DNA from: Chloroflexota bacterium | Lineage (GTDB): Bacteria; Chloroflexota; Anaerolineae; Anaerolineales; UBA11579 | Assembly (NCBI GenBank): GCA_016191875.1 | Contig: JACPVG010000036.1 | Span: forward strand, 299,252-363,251 | Reading direction: 5' to 3' | DNA: 64,000 bases | Part shown: one piece after another, positions 48,565 to 56,603 of the stretch | Numbering within the stretch: position 1 is the first letter of the stretch | Layout: the number at the start of each line of letters is the position of its first letter | Translations under genes and position numbers: made by a program | The notes under the pieces: generated by a model | The model's input: only the letters and a program-made list of their open reading frames with translations | Databases searched by the model: none | What the model was told of the DNA's origin: nothing

Positions 48565-49536
48565 CTATGGATAGTCCATCTGCAAGGTGTACAGGTATGC
48601 CACCACGTGCCAGAGCTGCTCATCGGTGTAGATCGCGCCCCACATCGGCATGCCGGTACCCATGCCGCCGCGTAGCAGCTTGCCCTGCAGCAGGGCGGGG
48701 CTGGCCCCCAGCAGGATGGCCGGGTCCTGCCAATCCGGTGGCGATTGCATCAGCATGTCGGGCGCGCCCGCCAACCCCTGCATGGCGGCTTGTCCGGCAG
48801 AGGCCAGGTCATCAGCGTACAGGCCGTCGCCAGCGCCCTGCGGGCCGTGGCAGGCGGCGCAGTCCTGCCGGAAGATGGTCTCGCCCTCGGCCAGAGCGGC
48901 CGGGCTGGTCTGGCGCGCCCACAGGGCCGCCACCAGGTCCCAGCGCTGCGCGTCGGTGAGGTTCTCCAGGCCGGGTTGATTCCCCAGGCTGCTCCACAAC
49001 TGGGCCGGGGATGCGGCTGCGTACTGGTCGAACGAGAACTCAAGCGCCACAACCGGCGCCGCCAGGGCGTTGGGGCGCTCAGCTGGCGTAGTCTCTGCCG
49101 GATGGGGGGCATCGATGTCAATGCCCAGTTGGGCGTAGAGCGGCGGCGTGGGCGCGCCTGCTTGCACGTCGCTGCCGCGCACTTCGATGACGCCGCGCAT
49201 GCGCCAGTGATTCAGCCCGCACCAGACCGTGCAGTAGTAGGTGTATATGCCGGGCTGGTCGAAGGTCAGGGTGACTTCGGTTACTTTGCCCGGTTCGACC
49301 AGCACGGCCTCGAAATCCGTCCGGCCGACGCCGAAACCGTGCAGCACGTCGTCGGAGGTCAGGCGCACGGTGAGCGGCTGGCCGGCCTCGGCGCGTAGAA
49401 CGTCTGGCGCCCAACCGCCTTGCTCGGCCAGCCGGGCGTGCAGGAGGGGCGGGCGCTGCCGGGCGGCCAGCGGGAAGCCGACGGCGGCCGCGGCCAGCCC
49501 CAGCACCAGCAGCCGGGCGAGCGTTTCGGCTCTCAT
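48565..49536 (-). CDS. periplasmic CuA cupredoxin fused to cytochrome c
   Basis: A 323-residue exported protein. The track ORF is too long; the ATG at 49536 overlaps the polyferredoxin stop by 4 nt. An N-terminal hydrophobic segment is followed by a cupredoxin domain with a full CuA set: His66 (VLHGFGV), then YYCTVWCGLNHWRM with Cys102, Cys106, His110 and Met113. The C-terminal domain has one heme site CAACH (226-230) and a later Met-rich segment (MGTGMPMWG) for the axial ligand. The pattern is that of cytochrome c oxidase subunit II of the caa3 type, but the two-helix membrane hairpin is absent. It probably carries electrons between periplasmic partners; no oxidase subunit I lies in the window. 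Confidence 0.9.
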   Translation of the reverse strand: MRAETLARLLVLGLAAAAVGFPLAARQRPPLLHARLAEQGGWAPDVLRAEAGQPLTVRLTSDDVLHGFGVGRTDFEAVLVEPGKVTEVTLTFDQPGIYTYYCTVWCGLNHWRMRGVIEVRGSDVQAGAPTPPLYAQLGIDIDAPHPAETTPAERPNALAAPVVALEFSFDQYAAASPAQLWSSLGNQPGLENLTDAQRWDLVAALWARQTSPAALAEGETIFRQDCAACHGPQGAGDGLYADDLASAGQAAMQGLAGAPDMLMQSPPDWQDPAILLGASPALLQGKLLRGGMGTGMPMWGAIYTDEQLWHVVAYLYTLQMDYP

Positions 49537-50882
49537 AGCAGCAATCCCATCATCGCCAGGGTAAGACCGAAGGCGTAGCCGGTTACCGGCAGCGCATGGA
49601 ACCCGCCCTGGGCCGCCGCCCGGCGGGCGACGCGCGCCGCCCAGAACGCGCCCACCACCAGCGCGCCGATTTGCAGCGGCAGCCCCCAGCTGGTGAGGAG
49701 CGGCTGCCAGGCCAGACCCGCCGCGCCGAACAGGTCCCAGCCCCAGCCGAGTGGGTCGGAGAACACGTTGAGGACGTAGACGGCGTTGGCGAACACGAAC
49801 GACAGGCTGAAGGCGGCCCAGAACATCAGGCCGAGCGGGACCAGGGCGGAGGCCGCCAGGGCGAAGTCGCTGCGCCGGGCGGTGCGGCGACGCGGCGCAG
49901 CGAAGACCTGCCCGAGACGCACCGCCAGCCAGAACAGGCCCGGCAACAGGCCGAAGCAGATGAACAGGAAAGCGGCCGCGTAGGCCAGCCAGGCCGGGCT
50001 GCCCACCGCCAGGGCGGCGGCCTTCAGGCCGCCCCACGGGCCTAGCAGGATGGCGGCATAAGCCAGGGCCGCGCCCAGCATCAGGAAGGCCTTGAAGGCT
50101 TCGTCCAGGCGGGCGGCCGGCTTTTCCAGGTCGCCGCCAAAGGGCCGCAGGTTGAGGGCGATGTTGTCTTTGGGGCAGGCGCGCAGGCATTCCAGGCACA
50201 GGCCGCAGGTGGAATTGCGCGCCAGCCCGGCCGGGAAGACGCCCCACGGGCAGCCGTAGCCGCTCTCCGAGCCGTTGTAGCAGGCTTTGCTGGCGCAGGC
50301 GGCGCACACGGCGGTATCCGCCACGCGCAGTTCCAGCGGGGCGGCCTGAGCGTACAGGCCGATGAAGCCGCCCACCGGGCAGACGGCGCGGCAGAAGGCG
50401 CGCCGTTCATAGACCGCGCTCAACCCAATGGCGGCCGCGAGCATGCCCGCCAGCGCCAGGGCGGTGACGCGCGGGTTGGTGAGGATGACGGCCGAGAACA
50501 GCGCCATGAGCGTGAAGACGCCGTTCTGCAGCCAGATGTTGCGCAGGGCTTTGGGCAGCCGCCGGTTGAGGCCGCGCGGCGGCCGGCCGGAGGGGCCGAG
50601 CAGGGCGCCGCGCTGGAGCCAATCGCCCGCCAGCGGGATGGGGCAGACCGCGCACCAGCCGCGCCCGGCCAGCGGCACGGCCGCCAGGATGAGCAGCGCC
50701 CACCAGAGAATCCACACGGCGATGATGCCGAAATTGCGGCTGCCGACCGGGGTGCCCAGCAGCCCGGAGACGATGACAAAGAGGAACCCGGCCAGCAGCA
50801 GCGCGGCGGCAATGAACTGCGGCCAGCGGCTTTTCAGGGCGGCTTTGAGCCAGGGACTGCGGGTGAGCGCCAGGCGCTTCAT
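49533..50882 (-). CDS. NapH/CcoG-like membrane polyferredoxin
   Basis: A 449-residue membrane protein; I start at the ATG at 50882, which overlaps the cupredoxin stop by 4 nt. The N-terminal half has four helices with CxxxCP motifs facing the cytoplasm, WCAVCPIPLAGDW and FCRAVCPVGGF, as in the NapH/NosR/RdxA group. A bacterial-ferredoxin-like region then shows VCAACASKACYNG and STCGLCLECLRACPKDN, sites for two [4Fe-4S] clusters. The C-terminal third adds about five more helices. Such proteins move electrons across the membrane from quinol or ferredoxin. Here the likely partners are the copper and heme proteins of the same operon. Confidence 0.9.
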   Translation of the reverse strand: MKRLALTRSPWLKAALKSRWPQFIAAALLLAGFLFVIVSGLLGTPVGSRNFGIIAVWILWWALLILAAVPLAGRGWCAVCPIPLAGDWLQRGALLGPSGRPPRGLNRRLPKALRNIWLQNGVFTLMALFSAVILTNPRVTALALAGMLAAAIGLSAVYERRAFCRAVCPVGGFIGLYAQAAPLELRVADTAVCAACASKACYNGSESGYGCPWGVFPAGLARNSTCGLCLECLRACPKDNIALNLRPFGGDLEKPAARLDEAFKAFLMLGAALAYAAILLGPWGGLKAAALAVGSPAWLAYAAAFLFICFGLLPGLFWLAVRLGQVFAAPRRRTARRSDFALAASALVPLGLMFWAAFSLSFVFANAVYVLNVFSDPLGWGWDLFGAAGLAWQPLLTSWGLPLQIGALVVGAFWAARVARRAAAQGGFHALPVTGYAFGLTLAMMGLLL

Positions 50883-51334
50883 TCCGCCGCCTTCCGGAGC
50901 GTGAGCGGGGCGGCCAGCACGGCCAGCCCCGCCAGGGCCGCGGCGCGGGCCAGCGTCCAGTTCGGGCCGACCACCAGCCGCCCGAGCATGAAGGGGTGCA
51001 AGGTCCCGCAGGTGACGCTGCAACGCAGGCGGAACACGCCCGCCCGGCTGGCGATGAAGGTGAGCGCCGCCGGTTGGCCCGGCTGGGCCTCGGCCGAAAC
51101 GTCGTAGCCGTCCACGTACAGGCCGTGGGTAACGTCCGTGCTGTGCAGTTCGATGGTGATGGTGTCGCCGGGGTTGGCGCGCAGGCTGGCGGGCGTGAAA
51201 GCGTATTGCCCGGCCCCCACCCGGAAGAAGCGTTCCAGCGGCGCGGCCGCGGCCGGAGCGGGAATCAAAATGACCGCCAGCGCCACACTTGCCAGCGCCA
51301 GGGTCATCCAGAGGTCTTTCCTTCTGAGATTCAT
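50879..51334 (-). CDS. small exported cupredoxin with CuA-type motif
   Basis: A 151-residue protein with a signal peptide (ending about APAAAA), one cupredoxin domain and a C-terminal membrane helix (about 128-145). His70 (VTHGLYV) and RCSVTCGTLHPFM, with Cys105, Cys109, His113 and Met116, match the CuA pattern C-x3-C-x3-H-x2-M. It therefore carries the same binuclear copper motif as the cytochrome fusion two genes downstream, without the heme. It starts 20 bp after the PCYCGC gene and overlaps the polyferredoxin gene by 4 nt. It may deliver copper or pass electrons; both are possible. Confidence 0.87.
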   Translation of the reverse strand: MNLRRKDLWMTLALASVALAVILIPAPAAAAPLERFFRVGAGQYAFTPASLRANPGDTITIELHSTDVTHGLYVDGYDVSAEAQPGQPAALTFIASRAGVFRLRCSVTCGTLHPFMLGRLVVGPNWTLARAAALAGLAVLAAPLTLRKAAE

Positions 51335-51354
51335 CGTTCAATGCCCGGCCGGGG

Positions 51355-51819
51355 TTATGGCAGGTTGGATGGCCCATAGCGGCCGTAGGTCTGGTCGATG
51401 AAGGCCTGCATGTCCGGCACGTCTTCGCCGTCGCGCATCATGCGCATCACGTCCTGGGTGATATCCACGCAGATCTGGCAGCCAAGGGCATGGCCGTCGA
51501 AGACCAGGTTGCCGGCTGCGTCCGCTCCGGAGACGTAGCAGGCGTAGTTGGACGTATGGCCGATGCTGCCGCAGCCGCAGTAGCAGGGAAACTGCTGCAT
51601 GAGGTCCGGGTTGGCGGCGGCGAAGCGGTAGGCGTCGCTCACGCGCGTCGGGGCGTCCTGCACGGCCTGGGGCAGATGTTCCATGCCCAGCAGCTCCAGG
51701 TCTGCGGCGCCGGAGGAACAGGCGGGCAGGCCGGAGATGAGCAGCAGGGCCAGGATGGAGAACAGGGCAAAGCGGCGGTGGCGTGTGGGCATGTTACGTC
51801 TCGAGGGCGTGAGAGTCAT
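51355..51819 (-). CDS. PCYCGC-motif lipoprotein
   Basis: A 154-residue lipoprotein (lipobox SGLPAC) with the family motif FPCYCGCGSIGHTSNYACY and a later CQICVD pair, followed by TQDVMRMMRDGEDVPDMQ. The PCYCGC family has no established function. The many Cys residues suggest metal or thiol chemistry outside the membrane. Two starts are possible: ATG at 51819, five bases after a TATAAT (leaderless), or ATG at 51792, which leaves a short leader but also lacks an SD. The gene leads the five-gene redox operon. Confidence 0.85.
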   Translation of the reverse strand: MTLTPSRRNMPTRHRRFALFSILALLLISGLPACSSGAADLELLGMEHLPQAVQDAPTRVSDAYRFAAANPDLMQQFPCYCGCGSIGHTSNYACYVSGADAAGNLVFDGHALGCQICVDITQDVMRMMRDGEDVPDMQAFIDQTYGRYGPSNLP

Positions 51820-51918: not shown

Positions 51919-52626
51919 TCATGCCCCCAACTTGCGCAGCAGGAACTCCTGAAGGAACAGCGGCGGGTTGCGCAGGTCGAAGGGGGTGAGGCGGCCCAAC
52001 GCGGCCATCTGGTGAATGGCCGGGCGCGCCTGGTGCGGCGTGTCGATGGCTTCGGCCAGTTCATCGGCCAGGCGGCCGCTGCCGCGCAGCAGCACCACCT
52101 CGCGCCCCTGACGCACGTTCTCCAGCACCTCTTTTTCCGCGCCGCTGCCGCCGTTGGCCAGCACGCCCAGCGAGCGCTGCCCGGCCGAAAGGAACTCCGC
52201 CAGGGCGAACAACGGCCGGCGCTCCTCGCCGAACGCCTGCCCTTCCACCTGCACGATGTGGGTGTGGTGGCCGCCGAAGGGGTAGGCGTGCTCGTCGTGC
52301 TCGCCCGGCAGGCTGGTCACGCCCGCCGGGGCCACGCCCACGTAGGGGCCGGGGAAGCCCAGCCCGGCCAGGGCGGCGTTGAGCATACCCATGATGCCCG
52401 AATCGGTGCCGCCGTCGATGACGGCCGCGCCGGTCCGCAGCATGGCAGGGGCCAGACCCTCGTGGATGTGGCGCTCCAGACGCGCCCGGTCGTCCGGGGC
52501 CAGCTTGGCCGCCCCGCCCATCACCACCACCAGCGGGCGCTGCGGGCGCAGGCCCAGGCGGGCGGCGATCTCCGCGCCCGGCGTGGTTTTGGCGACCAGC
52601 ACGGCGGTTGCATTATCCGTTTTCAT
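51919..52626 (-). CDS. SLOG-family protein of the LSDAT (TRPM-like) type
   Basis: A 235-residue Rossmann-like protein of the SLOG superfamily, in the prokaryotic LSDAT group related to the N-terminal domain of TRPM channels. Motifs include LVVVMGGAAKL, AAVIDGGTDSGIMGMLN, YVGVAPAGVTSLPG, a conserved acidic-aromatic block HHTHIVQVEG, and VLANGGSGAEKEVLENVRQG. SLOG proteins are thought to bind nucleotide-derived ligands, and several sit in bacterial signalling or conflict systems. It overlaps the upstream membrane-protein gene by 14 nt, so the two are translated together. The ligand is unknown. Confidence 0.82.
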   Translation of the reverse strand: MKTDNATAVLVAKTTPGAEIAARLGLRPQRPLVVVMGGAAKLAPDDRARLERHIHEGLAPAMLRTGAAVIDGGTDSGIMGMLNAALAGLGFPGPYVGVAPAGVTSLPGEHDEHAYPFGGHHTHIVQVEGQAFGEERRPLFALAEFLSAGQRSLGVLANGGSGAEKEVLENVRQGREVVLLRGSGRLADELAEAIDTPHQARPAIHQMAALGRLTPFDLRNPPLFLQEFLLRKLGA

Positions 52627-53449
52627 CGGTTTTCATTTGGGGCGGTTTCAGGCTTCCCAGGACGTTAACGAGCCGCGGCCGGAATGCGTTATACAGGTGC
52701 AGGACGCGCCAGAAGGCCAGCGCGGCCATGCCGTGCGCCAGCACGGCGAACAGGGGCGGCTGCTCCAGCGTGTAGTAGATCCAGGTCAGGCGCGTCGTGC
52801 CCCACAGTTCCAGGTAGTAGCCCAGCGCCGAACCGGCCGCGAAGTTGAGGAAGGCGGCGCGCGCATCGGTGGGGGTGAGGATGAGGAAGGCGCACAGGCC
52901 CAGCGCCGCCAGCGTGAGCGAACGGCCGAAGGTTGGGGCGACGAAAACAAGCATGAGGGCGTAGAAGGCGGGCAGGGCCAGCCAGTACAGCCTGGCGAAG
53001 GCCTGCTCCGGGATGCGCCGCGCCAGCAGACGCAGGAAGCGCACCATGCGGTCAATGCTCAGGCTGGCGATGGGCCAGGCGGGGATGATCCACAGCGGCG
53101 GGCGCTCGGCGGTGTAGTAATGCCACAGGTTGGTTTGCGTGCCCCACGATTCGATCACCAGCCCGCCCGCCAGCCCGATGACGATGATGGGCAGGTCGGC
53201 TTTCAGGTCGGCCCCGGCCATGATCATCAGCGACATGAACAGGAAGATGTTGATGAGCAGCCAATCCACCTGCCGCCAGAGGGGCACGGCGGGGTTGAAC
53301 AGGTCGAAGTATTCCTCGGCCAGCGGCCACCAGACGTACAGGATGAGCAGGATGAGCAGGGCAAAGCCGCTCATCAGGGCATAGGAGGCGCGCGTCCAGC
53401 GCAGGGCGGAACGCAGTTCGTGGAAGAGCGCAACGCGTGTTTCGGTCAT
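52613..53449 (-). CDS. polytopic membrane protein with internal duplication, partner of SLOG protein
   Basis: A 278-residue membrane protein with about eight hydrophobic helices. The two halves share a motif: ESWGTQTNLWHYYTAERPPL near residue 115 and ELWGTTRLTWIYYTLEQPPL near residue 220, i.e. E-x-WGT-x4-W-x-YYT-x-E-x-PPL, each followed by a helix. The charged and aromatic residues in the repeat may form a binding site. I do not recognise the family by name. It overlaps the SLOG gene by 14 nt. A TGTAAT on the minus strand lies 7 bp from the ATG. A membrane protein paired with a LSDAT protein recalls TRPM architecture, but that is only an analogy. Confidence 0.7.
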   Translation of the reverse strand: MTETRVALFHELRSALRWTRASYALMSGFALLILLILYVWWPLAEEYFDLFNPAVPLWRQVDWLLINIFLFMSLMIMAGADLKADLPIIVIGLAGGLVIESWGTQTNLWHYYTAERPPLWIIPAWPIASLSIDRMVRFLRLLARRIPEQAFARLYWLALPAFYALMLVFVAPTFGRSLTLAALGLCAFLILTPTDARAAFLNFAAGSALGYYLELWGTTRLTWIYYTLEQPPLFAVLAHGMAALAFWRVLHLYNAFRPRLVNVLGSLKPPQMKTDENG

Positions 53450-53498
53450 CGGGGAGATTACACCACAGATTCACAAGAGGTCAGCCAGGCGCGGAGGC

Positions 53499-53504
53499 TA
53501 TAAT
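53499..53504 (+). promoter_or_regulatory. -10 box before the cupin gene
   Basis: A perfect TATAAT lies 31 bp upstream of the ATG at 53536. No good -35 is placed at 17 bp. Confidence 0.45.
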
Positions 53505-53535
53505 ACGGCGAAAATCAAGTCAGGAGGAGCGTCTG

Positions 53536-54093
53536 ATGGCAAAGACTGGCGATGTGCTTGAGAATCCCGGGGCGGGCGAACGCATCGTGTTCCGTGTGGC
53601 TGCGGCGGAAACCGGCGGGGCCTACACCCAGTTCGACCAATACCTTCTAAAGCCCAGGGCGGGCTACTCGCCCACCCACATCCACCTGCGCACCGACGAG
53701 CGCTTCGAGGTCATCTCCGGCACGGCGGCCTATACGCTGGGCGGCCTGCATCGCACCGCCGGGCCGGGCGAGGTCGTAGAGGTGCCGCGCGGCACGCTGC
53801 ACCGCAACCCATGGAACCGCGCCGGCGGCGAACTGCACCTGCTGCGCACCGTGACGCCGCCCTCCGGGGCCGAGTTGTTCTACGAGACGTTCTACGGGCT
53901 GGCGGGCGACGGCAAAGACCTGGACTTCTGGCAGGCGGCGCTCACCAGCCATTACATCCACAGCGAGACCTATTTCTTCCCGCCCAACGTGCCCATTCCG
54001 ATTCAGCGGGCGGCCCTGCCGCTGGTGGCCTGGCTGGCCCGGCTGAAGGGCTACCGGCCCTATTACCCCAAATACACGCAGGGCGAACTGTGA
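53536..54093 (+). CDS. cupin domain protein
   Basis: A 185-residue cupin. I start at the ATG at 53536, which follows AGGAGGAG; the track ORF is longer. Motif 1 appears as HIHLRTDERFEVISG and motif 2 as PGEVVEVPRGTLHRNPWN, giving the three His and one Glu that hold a metal. The C-terminal 70 residues are helical with a hydrophobic stretch (LPLVAWLARLKGYRPYYP). Function may be enzymatic or sensory. Its stop overlaps the next gene's GTG by 4 nt, so it is translated with the DyP-companion and DyP peroxidase genes. Confidence 0.87.
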   Translation: MAKTGDVLENPGAGERIVFRVAAAETGGAYTQFDQYLLKPRAGYSPTHIHLRTDERFEVISGTAAYTLGGLHRTAGPGEVVEVPRGTLHRNPWNRAGGELHLLRTVTPPSGAELFYETFYGLAGDGKDLDFWQAALTSHYIHSETYFFPPNVPIPIQRAALPLVAWLARLKGYRPYYPKYTQGEL

Positions 54094-55232
54094 CCGGAAG
54101 CGACCTGACCGCCCTCCTGGAGGTCAAGCCGGGGCAGGCGGGCTCGCTGCGAGACCTGCTCCTTTCTATCGGCGCGGATGTGAACGGCAACCCGGCGCTG
54201 CGGTTCGGCGAGATGCCGGGAGTACACTTTGCGCGCTTTACGCTACTGGAGGACGGCCGCCGCCTGTTGATGAACGCCGTCCACGATGGCAGCCTGGAGC
54301 AGCACCTGGACGAACTGGCGCGCCACGGCCCCGGCCTGGGTTCAATTCTCGGCCACTGCGCGGATTTCCCCGGTATAGATGCGCCGGGCGCGTTCAGGGA
54401 CTGGGTTGCGGCGCACCGGGTGACGGGTGGGGCGTTCTTCCGGGCGCACGCGTGCAGCGTGGCCGGGGTACGGCGCTGCCTGGCGCTGCGCGACCGCATC
54501 GACGGACTGCTCTCCCTGCCGGAGGTCGAAGCCTTCCTGGCATCTCTCAGCCGCCTGCCCTCGCCGCCCCGCAAACCGCCGCCCGGCCGCCTGGCCAGGC
54601 TGGGTTCTTCCGCGCTGGGGGCAATCGCCGACCTGCTGCTTGGCGCACTGCGCCTGCCGCAGTTGCCCTTTGCCGGCCGTACCTCGACTCGACTGGGACA
54701 GGAACCTGCCCTGACCGTGCACACGCCCTGCTGGCTGACTGAGCGCGAACACATCGTCCAGAACGAGATGACCATCATGCTTCCCACACATCCCGGCCTG
54801 CGCGGCTACCTGCGCGCCATCCTGGGCGCGGCCGGCCGTTCGCTCAAGGAACCGCCGCCGGACGGCACCCTGGCGGGAGTGTCCACCGTGCACTTTGGCC
54901 GCTGGATGATGATCGATGGCGGCCGAAGCCTGTTGTTCGTGAGCAATTACGACGGCGCCTGGGAATCCTACATCGGCGAGGTGGCCTCGGAACGGGTTGG
55001 CAAGGGCCTGGACCTGATCTGGGGCTGCTGCCGGGGTTACCCGGCAGCCGGGGCGGGCGATATCCAGGCTTTCAAGCAGGTCATCATCGACCACCAGGCG
55101 CGGGCCGAGGTGTTCTACAGCGCCTACCCGGACCGATCGGCAAAGAACATCCTGGCCGCCATCCGTAGCGCCGAAACGCTGGAAGCCCTGCTGGAAGACG
55201 AGCGTGTCGCCGGTTTCCTGCGCGAACTGTGA
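54090..55232 (+). CDS. duplicated ferredoxin-like-fold protein linked to DyP peroxidase
   Basis: A 380-residue protein. The start is GTG at 54090 in GTGA, overlapping the cupin stop. It contains two similar domains: FARFTLLEDGRRLLMNAVHD with DGSLEQHLDEL (about residues 45-75), and FGRWMMIDGGRSLLFVSNYD with DGAWESYIGEV (about 265-300). The pattern 'HFxRW...DGxxLLF.SNYDGSWExYL' is known from proteins encoded near DyP-type peroxidases and resembles half of the DyP alpha/beta barrel. No heme ligand can be assigned. It may form a complex with or deliver substrate to the peroxidase encoded 9 bp downstream. Function is inferred from context. Confidence 0.78.
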   Translation: MTGSDLTALLEVKPGQAGSLRDLLLSIGADVNGNPALRFGEMPGVHFARFTLLEDGRRLLMNAVHDGSLEQHLDELARHGPGLGSILGHCADFPGIDAPGAFRDWVAAHRVTGGAFFRAHACSVAGVRRCLALRDRIDGLLSLPEVEAFLASLSRLPSPPRKPPPGRLARLGSSALGAIADLLLGALRLPQLPFAGRTSTRLGQEPALTVHTPCWLTEREHIVQNEMTIMLPTHPGLRGYLRAILGAAGRSLKEPPPDGTLAGVSTVHFGRWMMIDGGRSLLFVSNYDGAWESYIGEVASERVGKGLDLIWGCCRGYPAAGAGDIQAFKQVIIDHQARAEVFYSAYPDRSAKNILAAIRSAETLEALLEDERVAGFLREL

Positions 55233-55241
55233 CGGAGTGCC

Positions 55242-56603
55242 ATGACAGCCAAAGTCGAAATCGACGACATCCAGGCCATCGTGCTGACCGGCTATGCCCA
55301 CCTCAACGAAGCCGTCTACATCTTCCTGCACGTGCGGGACGGCGGGCGGGCGCGCGCGTGGCTGGGCAGTATCCTGCCGGAGGTTTCCAGTGCGGCCGCC
55401 TGGCCGCTTGGCGCGGATGGTCGGCCGATCAAGCCCTCCACGCGCATCAACATCGCCTTCACCCACGCCGGCCTGCACGCCATGGGCTTGAGCCAGCCGA
55501 TGCTGGCATCCTTCCCGGCCGAGTTCCGCGAGGGGATGGCCGAGCCGGTGCGCGCCCGCCTGCTGGGCGACGTGGGCGCCAGCGCGCCCGAATCCTGGGA
55601 ACTCGGCGGGCCGCGCACCGAACCGGTGCACATCCTGGTGATGCTGTTCGCCGCCACGCCGCAACTGGTGGAGGACCTCAAAGTCCGCTACCTGGCGCAG
55701 ATGCACGAGATGGATTGCGTGCGCATCATCTGCGAGCAAGCCGCGGCGCGCCTGGCCGGGATGCGCGAACACTTCGGCTACCGGGACGGCATCTCCCAGC
55801 CGGGGCTGGAAGGCACCACACTCCCCAGGCCGGGCCAGGAGATGGTCAGGCCCGGTGAATTCGTGCTTGGCTATCAGAACGAGTATGACCTGCTGACCCC
55901 CATGCCAGAGCCGCGCGCCCTCGGCCAGAACGGCACGTATCTGGTCTACCGCAAGTTGGAACAGGATGTGGCCGCCTTCAACCGGTTTCTGGATGAGCAG
56001 TCCGGCGCGAACCCGGAGGTGCGCGAACGGCTGGCGGCTAAACTGTTGGGCCGCTGGCCGAGCGGCGCACCGCTGGCGCTGGCCCCGGAAAAGGACGACC
56101 CGGCCCTGGCGGCCGATGACCGGCGCAACAACGACTTTCACTACGCCGCCGATGACCCCTACGGCTATCGCACGCCATTGGGCGCGCACATCCGGCGCTC
56201 CAACCCGCGTGATGGATTGGAAAAGAATCCCCGCCTCTCGGCGATCACCAGCCGCCGCCACCGCATCATCCGGCGCGGCCGGCCCTACGGCCCGCCCTAC
56301 AGCCCCGAGACCGCGGCTGCGCGGCGCGGGTTGCTGTTTGTGGCCATCAATACCGACATCCGCCGCCAGTTCGAATTCGTCCAGCAGGTGTGGCTCAACG
56401 ACCCGAAGTTCGCCGGGCTGCATACCGATAAAGACCCGTTCGCGACCAACCACGATGGCGACAACACGCTTACCATCCAGCGCCACCCGGTGCGCAAAGT
56501 GGTGCGGGACCTGCCGCGTTTCGTCACCGTGCGGGCGGGGGGCTACTTCTTCGTGCCGGGAATGCGGGCGCTGGAATGGATCGTCTCCGGCCCGCATGGG
56601 TAG
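55242..56603 (+). CDS. DyP-type heme peroxidase
   Basis: A 453-residue dye-decolourising peroxidase family protein. The signature GxxDG appears in HFGYRDGISQPGLEG, whose Asp is the distal acid. The C-terminal region TIQRHPVRKVVRDLPRFVTV and GGYFFVPGMRALEWI matches the family end. No Tat or Sec signal is seen at the N-terminus (MTAKVEIDDIQAIVLTGYAH), so it is probably cytoplasmic. These enzymes oxidise bulky compounds with hydrogen peroxide. The gene follows its companion by 9 bp. Its last 80 bp overlap the convergent Moco oxidoreductase gene. Confidence 0.93.
   Translation: MTAKVEIDDIQAIVLTGYAHLNEAVYIFLHVRDGGRARAWLGSILPEVSSAAAWPLGADGRPIKPSTRINIAFTHAGLHAMGLSQPMLASFPAEFREGMAEPVRARLLGDVGASAPESWELGGPRTEPVHILVMLFAATPQLVEDLKVRYLAQMHEMDCVRIICEQAAARLAGMREHFGYRDGISQPGLEGTTLPRPGQEMVRPGEFVLGYQNEYDLLTPMPEPRALGQNGTYLVYRKLEQDVAAFNRFLDEQSGANPEVRERLAAKLLGRWPSGAPLALAPEKDDPALAADDRRNNDFHYAADDPYGYRTPLGAHIRRSNPRDGLEKNPRLSAITSRRHRIIRRGRPYGPPYSPETAAARRGLLFVAINTDIRRQFEFVQQVWLNDPKFAGLHTDKDPFATNHDGDNTLTIQRHPVRKVVRDLPRFVTVRAGGYFFVPGMRALEWIVSGPHG

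Follow-up and report, generated by a model that had tools for sequence, protein, structure and literature searches.

A TRPM-type SLOG gene overlaps the gene of a duplicated eight-helix membrane protein in one genus of uncultured Chloroflexota

Within a 64,000-nucleotide stretch of a Chloroflexota genome (hereafter the window), a gene for a TRPM-type SLOG protein shares overlapping frames with a gene for an eight-helix membrane protein. The pairing is real but local: it belongs to one genus of uncultured Chloroflexota and is documented there alone. Probably it represents a local sensor-membrane pairing built on an old, non-channel membrane protein. Both genes lie on the minus strand, with the membrane gene first (52613-53449, 278 aa; the 'EWGT' protein) and the SLOG gene second (51919-52626, 235 aa, LSDAT_prok/TRPM-type). 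The SLOG frame begins 14 nt inside the membrane gene, and the open reading frames give this overlap (52613-52626, minus strand) exactly as a preliminary description of the locus had claimed; translational coupling at this point is likely. The same pair with overlapping frames is present in each of the three species sequenced from the genus, the sister overlaps being 4 nt (G001) and 14 nt (G002). Within the genus, dN/dS is about 0.2-0.34 for SLOG and about 0.2-0.25 for the membrane gene; values of about 0.2-0.35 for both genes indicate purifying selection on the pair.

Assignment of the SLOG protein to the TRPM-type (LSDAT) family is firm at the level of sequence. It scores 146.4 bits against PF18171 (LSDAT_prok; curated cut-off 25.4, E 8e-43), which bears out the identity first given to it, and it is also matched by the eukaryotic TRPM SLOG model (LSDAT_euk, E 1.7e-9) and by the TRPM2 chanzyme in PDB (E 1e-7). 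The motif alignment shows that the protein retains GGA, DGGTDSG, HTH, FGEE, NGG and GSGRLAD; the motifs conserved at class level (GGA, DGGT, H-x-H, NGG and GSGR-x-AD) are all present in it and in both sister proteins. An AF2 model built on an alignment of three sequences only reaches pLDDT 53, a quality too low for comparing ligand sites. SLOG domains sense or process ADP-ribose derivatives, and SLATT proteins are predicted nucleotide-responsive pores (PMC9503650, PMC7159879). We infer that the window SLOG is a cytosolic TRPM-type nucleotide-binding protein whose ligand would be of the ADP-ribose/cADPR kind.

The membrane protein consists of two related four-helix units. Its AF2 model (mean pLDDT 90.2, from a 71-sequence alignment) contains eight long membrane helices, four per half, in agreement with the number proposed earlier. 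The motif E-x-WGT-x4-W-x-YYT-x-E-x-PPL is matched exactly by both halves, at residues 100-119 (ESWGTQTNLWHYYTAERPPL; 53093-53152, minus strand) and 214-233 (ELWGTTRLTWIYYTLEQPPL; 52751-52810, minus strand). Profile-profile comparison of one half with the other (hhalign) gave E ~5e-10 over 61 columns, a duplication signal beyond chance. The preliminary description had spoken of two symmetric sites; the motif does occur twice, but the halves are similar rather than equivalent, half 1 continuing as IIPAWPIASLSIDR and half 2 as AVLAHGMAAVAFWR. Invariant positions in the 71-row alignment include E100, W102-T104, W109, Y111-T113 and P117-P118, all in the first motif, and the columns of the second motif are conserved.

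Charge distribution over the 71 sequences bears on the topology. The N-terminal, TM2-3, TM4-5, TM6-7 and C-terminal segments carry a mean of ~11.8 K+R and 5.0 D+E, versus 3.9 K+R and 7.0 D+E in loops TM1-2, TM3-4, TM5-6 and TM7-8. The positive-inside rule predicts that the two motif loops (TM3-TM4 in half 1 and TM7-TM8 in half 2) lie outside, away from the cytosolic SLOG, which could hence affect them only indirectly. The membrane protein has no Pfam match at E up to 1, no match in NCBIfam, no PDB sequence match and no Foldseek match in PDB or BFVD at E up to 0.001. A channel or transporter family was sought for it in the same resources, and nothing was found in Pfam, NCBIfam, PDB sequences or the Foldseek searches of PDB and BFVD.

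More distant comparisons suggest a kinship for the family. Divergent homologues in three genomes (L232:1069-1929, L233:961-1851 and L234:1036-1944) have their halves in swapped order: the first half best matches the second half of the window protein, and vice versa. This apparent circular permutation fits a protein made of two pseudo-equivalent units that can be joined in either order. One of these homologues matches DUF817 (PF05675) at 3e-4 (21.0 bits, under the curated cut-off of 25.9); the window protein itself has no PF05675 match, and the best value among 71 relatives is 0.019. A plasmid search with a divergent homologue as query found nothing real. Alignment of the DUF817 and family profiles falls in motif register (E 0.015 over 121 columns), and genuine DUF817 members, taken from plasmid records, repeat E-x2-[GKAS]-T-...-W-x-Y-P in both halves. 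A DUF817 fragment served solely as the query that fetched these members and carries no weight as evidence. The profile of the repeat unit aligns in motif register with both DUF817 (E 0.0065) and the carotenoid hydratase CruF (E 0.0034), where reversed sequences gave 0.07-0.64 and an unrelated membrane family gave 0.25. A comparison of the repeat unit with the DUF817 unit (E 6e-4) was set aside since the units had been cut out by motif.

DUF817/YoaT proteins resemble the window protein in being polytopic membrane proteins with two copies of E-x2-[GKAS]-T-...-W-x-Y after a membrane helix. They differ in how the motif continues, YT-x-E-x-PPL in the window protein and YP in DUF817, and the window protein lacks the YP-x-Q signature. 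In CruF/Caroten_synth (PF04240), the stretch E-x2-GT-x-TG...Y-x-YT...IP-x2-W aligns with the repeat unit, but the CruF motif has an extra FG insert, and neither the window protein nor its relatives match PF04240 beyond the weak profile match. The DUF817 and CruF profile matches, short and below family cut-offs, are suggestive and not proof; the membrane family is probably a distant relative of DUF817/YoaT and perhaps of CruF. Bacillus subtilis and Acinetobacter both have DUF817/YoaT. To our knowledge, DUF817 has no known function, and we know of neither DUF817/YoaT nor CruF as a channel. No PF04240 (CruF) or PF18916 (Lycopene_cyc) gene was found in the window's genome, so any substrate would have to be something other than a carotenoid from that pathway. 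Membership of the lycopene cyclase family (PF18916) was also considered for the membrane protein and rejected: there was no match and no PLEE-type motif, and the repeat-unit comparison was no better than the nulls. At two of the divergent loci (L232 and L233) the homologue lies tail to tail with a gene for a geranylgeranyl-reductase-like flavoprotein, a faint hint toward isoprenoids.

The membrane gene is far more widespread than the pair. A scan of 84,980 genomes yielded 80 loci, 71 of them flanked on each side by 1 kb or more. In class Anaerolineae the family is mostly single copy per genome and patchily distributed; one contig is labelled Gracilibacteria (L079), which probably reflects its naming or binning. 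SLOG lies beside the membrane gene at only two of the 80 scanned loci, both in this genus, and was absent at ~78 others (BLAST, and the SLOG profile at E up to 0.01). In two genomes (G028 and G135) both genes are present on separate contigs. The pair recurs in the three species of the genus and not at the other loci. A known enzyme family together with a SLOG missing elsewhere had been named as what would speak against the initial idea; SLOG is indeed missing elsewhere, but the membrane family has no proven function. Outside the window's taxonomic family, the membrane gene often lies upstream of a TetR/PadR regulator and a MacB/FtsX-ABC-HlyD exporter set. This downstream set (TetR/PadR, MacB-FtsX, ABC ATPase, HlyD) is the commonest, at 45 of 77 loci, with gaps mostly of tens to hundreds of nt. 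We considered the set as a conserved operon partner that might explain the membrane protein and rejected it: its presence is not functional proof, the gaps are large, and within the window's taxonomic family the neighbours differ from it.

Around the window pair the neighbourhood is metabolic. Downstream of SLOG (48565-51819, minus strand) are genes for a PCYCGC lipoprotein, a COX2-like cupredoxin, a Fer4_5 membrane protein and a COX2-cytochrome c protein, a run suggestive of an extracytoplasmic redox or copper cluster; in one sister species (G002) the genes downstream of SLOG are different. Divergent from the pair (53437-56603, plus strand) are genes for a cupin protein, a 380-400 aa protein without Pfam match and a DyP-type peroxidase.

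SLOG relatives in the class often adjoin membrane protein genes. At L158 (2875-6735, G159:C26) a SLOG gene and an 8xMP octameric membrane protein gene overlap by 8 nt and are followed by HAD-like and TIR-regulator genes. An LSDAT_prok SLOG gene adjoins a DUF4231/SLATT_1 gene at L166, and LSDAT SLOG, DUF4231 and SLATT_1 are fused in a single protein at L161 (2800-4680, G251:C150). At L170 (531-7104, G056:C585; Anaerolineales), SLOG overlaps a SLATT/DUF4231 gene by 4 nt and is followed by patatin and two TIR-like genes, the TIR assignment having been made by eye from the sequence; we regard this cluster as a candidate nucleotide-signalling conflict system. In two genomes SLOG genes adjoin TIR-EAD8-CHAT proteins, at L167 (2905-7381) and L168 (5869-9674); on the other side of the L167 SLOG is an unnamed 209-aa protein. 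These SLOG-SLATT and SLOG-8xMP pairs resemble the window pair in that a TRPM-type SLOG gene directly adjoins a membrane protein gene. They differ in the partner, which there is a small SLATT/8xMP protein, near TIR genes in L158 and L170, and here an eight-helix non-SLATT protein in metabolic surroundings. The window membrane protein has no Pfam SLATT or 8xMP match, whereas the partners in L158, L166, L170 and L161 do match. In the tree, the window SLOG and its two sister genes form a separate well-supported clade, and no close relative links them to any of the SLATT/8xMP/TIR systems.

Our favoured reading, which we hold tentatively, is that an outward-facing lipid/isoprenoid-handling membrane protein has acquired, in one genus, a co-translated SLOG sensor that tunes it, and that the two do not form a channel of the TRPM kind. 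Given the predicted topology, each four-helix unit would end in an outward-facing E-x2-GT-x4-W-x-Y pocket. To judge by the relatives and the residues, this pocket of an acid plus aromatics would most likely bind or chemically handle a membrane isoprenoid or other lipid. In the one genus SLOG became a downstream partner, with observed overlap and selection and presumed coupling, and nucleotide-bound SLOG would most likely tune the membrane protein from inside. This explanation is weakened because in most species the membrane protein does its work with no SLOG; the idea of a sensor-membrane pairing is strengthened because SLOG relatives pair with SLATT and 8xMP proteins. Nearly as likely as tuning from inside is plain bystander co-expression: SLOG would have come to lie behind the membrane gene in an ancestor of these species, and the two proteins would be co-expressed only and work separately. 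Such an origin fits the missing SLOG at ~78 other loci, the separate contigs in G028 and G135 and the picture across the wider taxonomic order, where the commonest downstream neighbours of the membrane gene are TetR/PadR regulators and MacB-type ABC exporters rather than nucleotide genes. It accounts less well for an overlap kept in three species despite about 30% divergence of their SLOGs and differing downstream genes, or for the frequent coupling of class SLOG relatives to membrane partners.

A bolder variant, which we think unlikely, is that SLOG swapped its customary small SLATT-like effector for an unrelated eight-helix lipid/isoprenoid protein; the product would be a membrane enzyme or lipid device under nucleotide control, of an undescribed kind, with a duplicated, circularly permutable fold without solved relative. 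Somewhat less probable still is a conflict module, in which SLOG would read TIR-made ADP-ribose signals and turn the membrane protein into an effector that damages membranes, a scheme already put forward for SLOG-SLATT pairs. Relatives do lie in clusters of the TIR-SLOG-SLATT-patatin and TIR-SLOG-8xMP types, SLATT has been predicted to form a pore that responds to nucleotides (PMC7159879, PMC9503650), and each of the three genomes of the genus has 3-10 TIR matches elsewhere. However, the annotated neighbours of the pair include no TIR or other conflict gene, PADLOC gave no defence match for either the SLOG or the membrane gene, and the membrane protein, unlike an effector, belongs to a conserved, mostly single-copy family that occurs without SLOG. 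A TIR-domain frame in the window's own genome (G000:C35:206150-207475) has an internal TAG stop, and a similar frame in G001 has TAA. Very improbable, finally, is the nucleotide-gated channel or transporter, a bacterial TRPM analogue, that had been suggested at the outset. Parts of that suggestion stand: the SLOG is homologous by sequence to the TRPM2 SLOG (MHR1/2) domain (1e-7), the pair is real and under selection in three species, and the partner is indeed duplicated and polytopic. A channel-like partner is not supported. No ion-channel or transporter match emerged in Pfam, NCBIfam, PDB sequences or PDB folds, the conserved motifs are predicted to face outward, nearly all relatives do without SLOG, and the membrane relatives are DUF817/CruF-like. 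TRPM2 differs from the window pair, which lacks both the six-helix Ion_trans channel and NUDT9-H and is made of separate polypeptides.

If the two proteins do work together, the TRPM-type SLOG would be a portable nucleotide sensor for very different membrane proteins, and the pair would offer a bacterial system for finding the SLOG ligand. Whether or not they do, the membrane family adds a duplicated fold, well modelled though unsolved, that connects DUF817/YoaT with a motif also seen in a carotenoid hydratase, and this connection may provide a testable functional hint for DUF817/YoaT, a widespread orphan family.
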